From Echinarachnius parma (Eukaryota > Echinodermata > Echinoidea > Clypeasteroida > Echinarachniidae), in NCBI GenBank assembly GCA_037951105.1, contig JBAMJV010008281.1, positions 1-64,000 of the forward strand: a DNA stretch of 64,000 bases, given 5' to 3'. Of the stretch, positions 2,239-46,014 are shown one piece after another. Position 1 is the first letter of the stretch. Each line of letters begins with the position of its first letter. The notes beneath the pieces were generated by a model that had not been told where the DNA came from, ran no database searches, and saw nothing but the letters and a program-made list of their open reading frames with translations. The position numbers and the translations under genes were made by a program.

Positions 2239-5200
2239 GATCATCCAGTCAGAAGATGCCAAGAACGTTTTCAATAAATATGAGGAAATGATCAGCCTCC
2301 TTTCCAAGTAAGTATAATTAATATAGTAATTAAAGAGAAAGACAACAAGACAATGCTTCAAACTTGCAGTGGATGGAATGCTCCCCAAGGAGTGGAGAGA
2401 GTGTCTGTTGAGATTGATTATGGTGCACCACTAATCAAATGACCACCCAGGTAAAACAAAAACTCGTAAACAAAATAGACAAATAGTGTACAAATTGAAA
2501 TGAATGTCATAATTAGAGGGGACAACAATTTATTTATTGAAATTATATATCTAATAGGGAATTTTCATGAGCATATATGATACAAATAATATTTTGTTTT
2601 AGTGATATTCTTTACCATAATTTATGTATTGTCCCATATCTGGACACATTTTCAGCCATTGATATAATTTCTGTCCTTTTCTGATTCCTATTTTGCATTC
2701 AAAATTTCCACCAAATGCTATGTGGTAAAATAATAAGTTTTCCCAATCAATTTTGGAATTGTGTATAGAAAAAAGAAAAGAAAAAAAAAAGATGGCTCAA
2801 AATGTTCATTCATATAATATTACCTCTTCTGCTGATGTTTTACAGATACGAGAAGCAAATATTCGAGGACTGGACGAAGGGTGTCGATGAGGTTTGCAAG
2901 GTCAACCTTGACCAACCGCTCATCACTAGGAATGAAGCCAACAAACTGATATCTGTCAACTTTGATCCGAAGGTATGTTTTTCATACTTGTCCAACAAAA
3001 ATATTCTTCAAATGTAATAGTTGATCATGTTATATAATGGAATATTTATCCAATGTAATTGATGTTTTCTACATATGTGCATGCATTTAACCCAAAGAAG
3101 TGATTTGTCATGATTTCTTCTCATTTGTAGTAGCTAGTGTATGTTCATGACTGTCTTTCCTCATGATATGATCAAAAGCTAATTCAAGTTTATATTGTTA
3201 TGAAAAAAAAATGTTCAGTTGGTAGCAGTCCTGCATGAGGTACCTGCTGATCCGGCAGGAGGAGACCATCCCCGAGAGTTTCATGATTATCATTATCTTT
3301 GATTAGGGTGTCGGCTATATGCAGAAATCCAATAATTTATATATTCTTATGAGTACCCCTAAACTAATATGAATTGTTATTTTTAAAAACTTTTTAGTTG
3401 GTGGCAGTCCTTCGTGAGGTCAAGTACCTGCTGATCCGGCAAGAGGAGACCATCCCCGAGAGCGCGTCAACGATCTACGAGAAGCATGAGACGCTTCGCA
3501 AGTACGTCGCCAACCTGGATCTTACGGTTGCTTGGTACAACAAGGTGCGCAACACCGTGCTAGAGGTTGAGTTCCCGCTCATCGAGGGCCAGCTGGAGAG
3601 CCTGGATGAGAAATTACGGCAGGCTGAGCAGAGCCTGAACTGGACGGGGGATACCGTGTGGGAGTATATCGAGAACACACGAGACCAGGTATGAAGATGA
3701 TGATGATGGTGATGATGATGATGATGATGATGATAGTGGTGAAGCAGATCATGATGATCGTGAGGATGATGATGATCTTGATGATGAAGAAGAAGATGAT
3801 GGTGATAAAGGGTTTGATTGTGATGATGTTGATAACAACGATGCATATAATGCTCACGATTATGAACAAGATGATGGTGAAAATGACGATGATGATCGCG
3901 TTGGTGCTGCTGCTGCTGATAAATTAATGAAGATGACATGGATCATTGCAATAATAATAATTACTTTTTCACCTCTACCAATCCGGAAGATCATGCAGGA
4001 GTGGAGCAAGCAGTCATCGTTTGAACGCAAGGAGCTGAAGAAAAAGAGATGATGACGATGATGATGATAATAATAATGACGTTGATGATTACGATAATTA
4101 CCATAACTGTTTCTACCTCCACCAGGTGCGTGACTTAGAGAAGCGGGTGCAGCAGGCCAAGGACAACGTGGAGATGATCCGCAAGATCATGCAGGAGTGG
4201 AGCAAGCAGTCTTTGTTTGAGCGCAAGGAGCTGAAGAAGGAGAGTCTCCTGGCCCTGGAGGACCGTCAGGATAGGCTCAACAAGCGCTATGCAGAGATCA
4301 ACGTTGCCGGGGAGAAGATCCACTCGCTGATGAAGGTAAGCAACCAGAAACATTTCTTTTGTACTTAAGGACTATTTTTATCATCTATATAGATGGCACC
4401 ATCAGGCACTGAATTTGTCATTACAGAAAAGAAAAGAGATGTGTAGGGTGATAACCCCTTCATATGCTTTTAGCTTTTTCGCAATCATCTTTATTTTGAT
4501 CTAGATCAATTCCTTTGAACATTCCCTTGCTCATCAAGGTATAAGCAACTGAAAACATTCAAAGAGATTCATACAGGATTAACTGTTCATATGTCTTTTT
4601 TCCCCTCCCTATCTGCCATCATCTGGGATAAAAAAATTAACATCACACCTGTTCTTCACCTACAGGAAAACCAAGTTGCCTTGTTCAAAGCAGAAGCTGG
4701 CAGTGACCACTGGAAGGCATACGTTGATTACCTGGATGACATGGTGGTCGATGGCTTCTATGCCTGCATTTATTACTGTCTTTCAATCGAATCTACCCTC
4801 ATCTGGAATTAACAATACCATCTTGTCCATTTGTTGCCTTTTAGGAAAACCTTGCCCTGTTCAAGGCCGAGGCTGGCAGTGACCACTGGAAGGCATATGT
4901 TGATTACCTGGACGACATGGTGGTTGATGGCTTCTACGCCTGCATCCTCTGCACACTCAACTACCTGCTGGAGAACACAGACGTCAAGCACTGCGTGGCG
5001 GCACTGTTTGAAGCTCGTCTGGAACTGCAGGTGAGTTGTCTTGTGTACACAAAAAAGGGGGGAAAAAGGGCATTATTTTGAGTTATATAGCTTGTTTGCT
5101 GCTTGTTCATGAAGCAGCATGTCACTTAACTTACTCTCTGTGCCAATTATCGGCTCAAAGGGCACCGCGCTATAAATGGGTCACAACAGCAACATGATGT

Positions 5201-46014: not shown

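Follow-up and report, generated by a model that had tools for sequence, protein, structure and literature searches.

Half-exon copies beside the exons of an axonemal dynein heavy chain gene of Echinarachnius parma, a very probable record of short tandem duplications

We analyzed the first 64,000 nucleotides of contig JBAMJV010008281.1 (GenBank assembly GCA_037951105.1) of the echinoid Echinarachnius parma, read on the forward strand and called the window below. The window holds an axonemal dynein heavy chain gene of DNAH9/DNAH17-like type (2239..46014, forward strand), whose introns carry partial copies of the adjoining exons. The gene was modelled as 57 exons (2239-46014) from open frames and splice sites, with a joined frame that is open to the final stop and a translation of 3852 symbols, stop included. 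A PDB comparison of residues 1-900 gives dynein axonemal heavy chain 17 at 1172 bits and chain 9 at 1168 bits, and the last exon matches Dynein_C, the dynein C-terminal domain. Since the frame is open throughout and the homology matches are clear, the portion of the gene in the window is intact; its start precedes the window, so that the 5' part lies outside. A simple gene finder seeded by long open frames had returned 91 "exons," with copies and microsatellites among them, and was replaced by this hand-checked model. One modelled site is poor, the acceptor of exon 30 at 25528, which has an A-run before the AG and scores 0.1 against a median of 9.4; the acceptor of its copy at 25322 is likewise poor. 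The window contains zero N, and an Rfam search of it at gathering thresholds gave no match.

After masking of microsatellites, each exon was aligned locally to the introns on both of its sides, giving 114 pairs of exon and adjacent intron. Scores of at least 110 were reached by 26 of the 114 adjacent pairs, whereas a single one of the 684 non-adjacent pairs did so and no reversed intron (0 of 114). When all matches at this threshold are listed, there are 36 copies from 26 of the 57 exons. The original prediction had claimed about 39 truncated fragments of 26 exons in adjacent introns; this sensitive alignment confirms that the copies are real, the null pairs being almost empty. Its coordinates are also reproduced to within 13 bases, apart from two places (8051 and 26592) that are corrected below. 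A looser threshold of at least 80 yields 44 copies from 30 exons, and the eight copies scoring 80–110 are provisional, as a score of 80 is also attained by 12 of the 684 null pairs, which corresponds to about 2 chance matches among 114 pairs. At a score of at least 90, matches occur in 28 of 114 adjacent pairs versus 8 of 2970 far pairs, in no exon pair with the introns one to three positions beyond the adjacent one, and in 0 of 114 inverted adjacent pairs. The copies are therefore adjacent to their exons and in the same orientation, as remnants of local tandem duplications should be. Copies of at least 80% identity cover 2314 of 11557 exon bases (20.0%, in this one dynein gene). Within a spacing of less than 4 kb, self-comparison of the window gives 71 repeat pairs, of which 64 are direct and 7 inverted, with 6 of the inverted ones being self-palindromes; the direct pairs include two satellite-like arrays (957-1684 and 60628-61711) outside or before the exons.

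All copies of dynein exons lie on the forward strand, and periods and distances are given in bases. Upstream of the exons there are 27 copies, comprising 19 exon heads, 7 mid copies, and 1 whole exon. Among the heads, bases 1-65 of exon 3 recur at 3219..3278 (period 179; 93% identity, with a 5-base deletion), exon 5 at 4666..4769 (period 179; 8 synonymous and 0 nonsynonymous differences), and bases 5-152 of exon 9 at 7222..7368 (period 200; AG lost). Exon 14 is copied at 10640..10722 (period 144) and exon 17 at 13144..13263 (period 217), the latter with part of the intron duplicated too. Exon 19 has heads at 14703..14806 (distance 460) and at 14977..15098 (period 186; intron part duplicated too). 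The head of exon 22 lies at 17178..17250 (period 125), with an (ATG)n repeat immediately upstream and no flank homology. Long (ATG)n or (CAT)n microsatellites are found in dynein introns at 16758-17169, 26073-26369, and 39793-39945, the first ending just before this copy. Exon 28 has a head at 21330..21441 (period 185) that is 98% identical, with an intron flank lacking significant homology, and an older short one at 21222..21246 (distance 293; score 83). Three heads precede exon 29, at 22155..22284 (period 223; intron part duplicated too, AG lost), 22007..22065 (older; distance 371, score 108), and 21829..21874 (weak and oldest; distance 550, score 90). The head of exon 30 at 25322..25461 belongs to a 209-base unit of intron part plus head, which in its entirety is 88% identical to the next unit over 207 aligned bases spanning intron and exon. 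The remaining heads are those of exon 41 at 33743..33834 (period 245), exon 43 at 35405..35508 (period 164; intron part duplicated too) and 35236..35373 (older; distance 333), and exon 55 at 43786..43897 (period 189) and 43615..43724 (older; distance 362).

The upstream mid copies begin with bases 52-113 of exon 4 at 3981..4042 (period 196; 94% identity), where the head and the acceptor edge appear by eye to have been deleted. Exons 7 and 8 have weak mid copies at 5844..5904 (period 208; score 92) and 6445..6502 (distance 451; score 88). Bases 23-130 of exon 19 are found at 14815..14922, overlapping a 97% identical, ~90-base re-duplication of the copy at 14718. Further mid copies are an older one of exon 30 (bases 39-143) at 25141..25252 (distance 425), a head-side one of exon 53 (bases 42-105 of 281) at 42177..42230 (period 191), and a weak old one of exon 55 at 43535..43571 (distance 531; score 83). 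The copy at 8051..8162 (period 186), previously taken for an exon head, is in fact a decayed copy of the entire 117-base exon 10 (bases 1-116), with frame-shifting gaps of 4 and 8 bases; its AG is kept and its donor is, by eye, weakened.

Downstream of the exons we count 17 copies, 11 tails and 6 mid copies. Tails of exon 13 (10316..10456, period 202) and exon 18 (14408..14506, period 162) were each duplicated with part of the intron. Exon 16 has two tails, at 12668..12732 (period 123), within an array at 12548-12893 called by Tandem Repeats Finder (TRF), and at 12801..12867 (distance 256). A fragment at 26592 had been listed as an exon tail; this position sits in a 109-base tandem array (26489..26867) that starts in the final bases of exon 31 and extends into the intron, holds just the last 13-27 bases of that exon, and includes a weak tail copy at 26808-26831. 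A weak tail of exon 32 lies at 27666..27698 (period 219; score 95). Exon 36 has tails at 30174..30224 (period 163) and 30330..30378 (distance 317), exon 38 (bases 55-152 of 162) at 31679..31764 (period 175), and exon 56 at 44830..44940 (period 171) and 45047..45124 (distance 353). The mid copies are all tail-side: exon 33 at 28353..28420 (bases 144-211; period 180), with an internal deletion ahead of the tail seen by eye, and again at 28516..28591 (distance 343); exon 40 at 33009..33060 (bases 142-192 of 261; period 190) and, as a short piece, at 33363..33387 (distance 504); exon 42 at 34875..34926 (bases 150-204 of 282; period 182); and exon 52 at 42104..42182 (bases 35-107 of 139; period 200).

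These copies obey a strict polarity. Neither an upstream tail nor a downstream head occurs among the 44 dynein copies, and all 30 half copies that could be assigned to an edge follow the proposed rule of heads on the 5' side and tails on the 3' side, 19 heads being upstream and 11 tails downstream; the enrichment is thus complete, with no exception. Two of the mid copies, 3981 and 28353, resemble by eye a head and a tail, respectively, each with an internal deletion, and the other 11 mid copies were left unassigned. The original prediction also held that the copies usually keep the splice dinucleotide of their edge. AG is indeed retained in 17 of 20 edge-aligned upstream copies (the 19 heads and the whole copy) and GT in 6 of 10 edge-aligned tails, the eleventh tail ending before the exon edge. 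However, no retention rule is needed, since passive inheritance, given how far each copy has diverged, would leave 16.0 and 7.9, close to what is seen. Furthermore, 17 of 20 copy acceptors score lower than the acceptor of the real exon, on a matrix trained on real acceptors. From their sequences, the splice sites of the copies look inherited and decaying rather than kept.

Intron sequence was duplicated along with the exon parts in many cases. We compared the intron between each copy and its exon with the intron beyond the copy, using length-matched splice-site flanks of other exons as the null. Flank homology at p ≤ 0.05 was found in 21 of 44 copies, where about 2 are expected, and 16 of these are at the floor of p = 0.01. 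An earlier version of the test, whose null pieces were shorter than some test pieces, had given 25 of 44, and the length-matched figure is used instead. Of the 26 copies whose flank could be assessed, 10 have a match that also extends to the predicted junction or ends at most 3 bases from it; here flank and exon part were duplicated together as far as the end of the unit. TRF reports six arrays across exon edges (12548, 14815, 25141, 26489, 30010, and 35228). Two or three copies are present on 11 exon sides, and on 8 of these the second copy is 1.9-2.1 times as far from the exon as the first. Similarity is highest for the nearest copy on 5 of 6 multi-copy upstream sides but on only 2 of 5 downstream sides.

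The unit size is narrow. The nearest copy lies 123-245 bases away on 28 of 30 exon sides, with a mean of 185 and a standard deviation (SD) of 27 for those 28, and 22 of the 28 involve introns at least 400 bases long. The exonic part of the unit has a mean of 105 bases and an SD of 27. Compared with four uniform-placement nulls, p runs from 0.0002 to 0.14 for so low an SD and from 0.0004 to 0.19 for so high a mean. When units of the observed sizes are placed at random, 0.078 whole-exon duplications are expected per half-exon one, or about 2 per 28 events, and 1 is present (8051). A complete exon, with both splice sites and an open frame, is not found among the copies, 43 of 44 being partial. 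The original prediction had explained the lack of whole copies by selection removing complete duplicate exons; because random placement already yields only about 2, and one decayed whole copy exists, this clause is superfluous.

We consider it very probable that the half-exons are neutral debris of many short tandem duplications (123-245 bases, mean 185), each straddling one exon edge. A unit reaching from the upstream intron into the exon would leave, as its first copy, an exon head with an acceptor and no donor, followed by the intact exon. A unit reaching from the exon into the downstream intron would leave the intact exon first, then a tail with a donor and no acceptor. The polarity would then follow from the geometry of tandem duplication at an exon edge and not from function. 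With repeated rounds, arrays would form in which further copies lie roughly twice as far from the exon. It is plausible that splicing skips the half-exons, as each lacks one of the two sites that are paired in exon definition. The suggestion in the original prediction that small tandem duplications had one breakpoint in the exon is supported by adjacency, direct orientation, polarity, the 21 of 44 homologous flanks, the TRF arrays, and neutral decay in aggregate.

That decay was measured against what is expected when only the exon is constrained and its copy is free to change. Upstream copies differ from their exons at 148 synonymous and 198 nonsynonymous sites, a synonymous fraction of 0.43 versus 0.40 expected, and downstream copies at 61 and 109, a fraction of 0.36 versus 0.39. 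The 44 copies in aggregate thus decay as redundant sequence would. Of the 44 copies, 30 contain one or more gaps whose length is not divisible by three, and identities between copy and exon span 70% to 98%.

Several observations weigh against random short duplication as a full account. No significant flank homology is found in 23 of 44 copies, including the 98% identical copy at 21330 and the 93% identical copy at 17178. The seven upstream copies of at least 90% identity have too few nonsynonymous differences for free decay, 16 against 27 synonymous ones (p = 0.0009); the copy at 4666 accounts for much of this, and without it the ratio is 19:16 (p = 0.04). The five downstream copies of at least 90% identity have 3 synonymous and 10 nonsynonymous differences. 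Measured by the exonic clock, the intron parts of the units look over-diverged by a factor of 2-3, and very unevenly between events. The narrow unit size (coefficient of variation 0.14) is not predicted by random duplication. Tandem pairs lying in introns only number 3, or 5 with two borderline cases (the pair 27062/27242, which includes 6 exon bases, and the array at exon 31, which includes 13-27), against 28 expected at equal decay. Finally, no dynein exon is copied on both sides; with 18 upstream and 12 downstream, 3.8 are expected (p = 0.0055, post hoc). Random small duplications therefore leave the narrow unit size, the possible shortage of intron-only pairs, and the over-similar exonic parts without explanation. 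Gene conversion from the exon in short tracts would explain the over-similar exonic parts, as a candidate only. The exon 28 copies (21222-21515 in the window), with a 98% identical exonic half and a flank without significant homology, hint at gene conversion.

These points bear on a proposal that adds to tandem duplication rather than replacing it, namely that duplication is biased toward exons, for example by positioned nucleosomes, and/or that gene conversion refreshes the exonic half. We regard this as possible, though we lean against it. The unit size of 185 ± 27 bases, about one nucleosome repeat, fits such a bias, as do the 105-base exonic part (SD 27), tight and high to a degree that varies with the uniform-placement null, and the small number of intron-only duplications. 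However, when intron decay is calibrated on the intron parts of the units, the expected number of intron-only pairs falls from 28 to about 10 (7 to 15), so that a strong exon bias was set aside and remains a possibility only. With 10.1 units expected, the Poisson probability is p = 0.010 for 3 and 0.063 for 5; the two borderline cases thus weaken the shortage and with it the support for the bias, and the shortage would vanish if introns decayed 4 times faster. After calibration the shortage is weak and suggestive only. Refreshing of the exonic half is consistent with the uneven over-divergence of intron parts and with the upstream exons, where the nearest copy is most similar in 5 of 6, but not with the downstream exons (2 of 5) nor with the units of exons 13, 18, 19, 30, and 43, in which intron and exon divergence are concordant. 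A more specific form, in which a germline process of this lineage repeatedly makes tandem duplications close to nucleosome-repeat size (185 bases) that are anchored by the exon, with breakpoints ~105 bases inside it and ~80 bases into the intron, and the exonic half is refreshed by conversion, seems to us rather unlikely. The nucleosome repeat is of about this unit size, and the length of lagging-strand fragments is linked to nucleosomes. Faulty maturation of such fragments is reported to yield duplications (PMC12633238). The near-nucleosome unit size points to lagging-strand fragments as a source, as a lead only.

The other alternatives would replace tandem duplication as the explanation. Copies might be functional, serving under selection as decoy or alternative exons (mutually exclusive exons or regulated unproductive splicing), which we find improbable. 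The copy at 4666-4769 is the most constrained-looking, with 8:0 synonymous to nonsynonymous differences (p = 0.0004 on its own, about 0.02 when all 44 tests are allowed for), a 3-base insertion that keeps the frame, and a strong acceptor; the young upstream class leans the same way (27:16, p = 0.0009), and the copies at 21222 and 21330 keep strong acceptors. However, taken copy by copy, free decay fits all except 4666 and, nominally, 5844 (p = 0.02), and the copy acceptors mostly fall below the real ones (17 of 20, on the matrix trained on real sites). Selection on all 12 copies of at least 90% identity (30 synonymous, 26 nonsynonymous) was considered and demoted to a minor rival, as its signal comes from the 7 upstream copies only and all 44 fit neutrality. 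An assembly artefact, in which two haplotypes of a very polymorphic animal were placed side by side, is very improbable in our judgment: the young copies at 21330 and 4666 do differ from their exons at synonymous sites only, as alleles might, but the 70% to 98% range of identity, the frame-shifting gaps in 30 of 44 copies, the overall non-coding mode of evolution, the two or three copies on 11 exon sides, and the lack of any N all speak otherwise. Even the 8 synonymous differences in ~100 bases at 4666 would exceed what is expected of alleles. Least credible of all, and hardly tenable, is the idea that processed exon fragments derived from mRNA were inserted into introns. It would suit the several copies, some of them young, with no detectable homology past the exon edge (21330, 43786, and 17178), but it predicts copies with no preference for side, orientation, or intron, whereas those found are adjacent only, direct only, and polar. 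For the 21 of 44 copies with intron-flank homology it is refuted, since the intron flank would stay uncopied.

Short tandem duplication across exon edges is related to several known processes. In one model of intron gain, tandem duplication of an AGGT-containing exon segment yields a new intron that starts with the head of the downstream exon and ends with the tail of the upstream one. As in that model, duplication here puts exon-like sequence inside an intron; unlike in it, the copies adjoin their own exon in existing introns. Short tandem duplications are a common type of insertion. Small polymorphic duplications have been described in Drosophila (PMC6380325), and they too are direct, adjacent, hundreds of bases long, and mostly neutral or eliminated, whereas here 28 exon sides in one gene are affected, within 250 bases and at a narrow size of ~185 bases. 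Tandem exon duplication, as in Dscam-like mutually exclusive exons (surveyed in PMC9013439), likewise copies exon sequence into a neighboring intron; here, by contrast, 43 of 44 copies are partial and their aggregate decay is neutral. The same survey gives the exonic bases with a homolog of at least 80% identity in the gene neighborhood as about 2% in human, 0.08% in fly, and 0.06% in worm, to be set beside the 20.0% here with the caution that it used another program and whole genomes, and ours is one gene. Among the literature matches listed, mostly from the non-subscription literature, no title or abstract opening describes half-exon copies at this density or polarity. Small tandem duplications and exon duplications being well known, what the dynein gene presents is an ordinary mechanism at high density, possibly biased toward exon-anchored units of nucleosome size.

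One further gene was modelled in the window, and it carries copies in the same layout. This is a COX10-like heme O synthase gene on the reverse strand (51489..57400), modelled with 5 exons, the first being partial; its frame matches TIGR01473 at 253.9 bits as well as UbiA. On the same strand, downstream of exon B, a tail copy lies at 56373..56473 (period 200; score 316) with no GT at its edge, and exon B has an additional weaker mid match (score 105). Upstream of exon D, head copies with AG kept are found at 54585..54674 (distance 312; score 380) and 54452..54484 (distance 122; score 105). Beyond the last exon, E, there are weak tail-side matches scoring 135 (71%), 93, and 79; the maximum of the null in this comparison was 91. 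Exons A and C have no copies, and no match in this gene breaks the polarity. Since this gene lies on the other strand and has the same layout, the half-exon pattern is not special to the dynein gene or to one strand. The DNAH9/DNAH17-like and COX10-like genes adjoin each other (2239-57400 in the window). Human DNAH9 and COX10 are also close together on 17p12, and this synteny may therefore be ancient.

Other repeats in the window include a satellite at 60628-61711, with a 156-base unit in 6.9 copies at 97% matching, and a minisatellite at 957-1684, with a unit of about 64 bases and poly-C stretches. Long near-palindromes at 23030-23478, 55099-55669, and 62339-62752 are perhaps inverted-repeat transposable elements.

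Each half-exon would be the record of a tandem duplication that the gene survived, with its breakpoints anchored by the exon. As nearly half of the exons are marked, the size, position, and decay of small duplications can be measured within one gene, and the question of a link to chromatin can be asked. The tolerance of splicing for decoy acceptors and donors is testable in such a gene, and gene prediction calls for caution, as the simple gene finder called a number of the fragments exons. If exon-anchored, conversion-refreshed duplication were true, genes would hold a layered record of past duplications at their exon edges. Judging from these two neighboring genes, half-exon duplication may be a genome-wide habit of the species.

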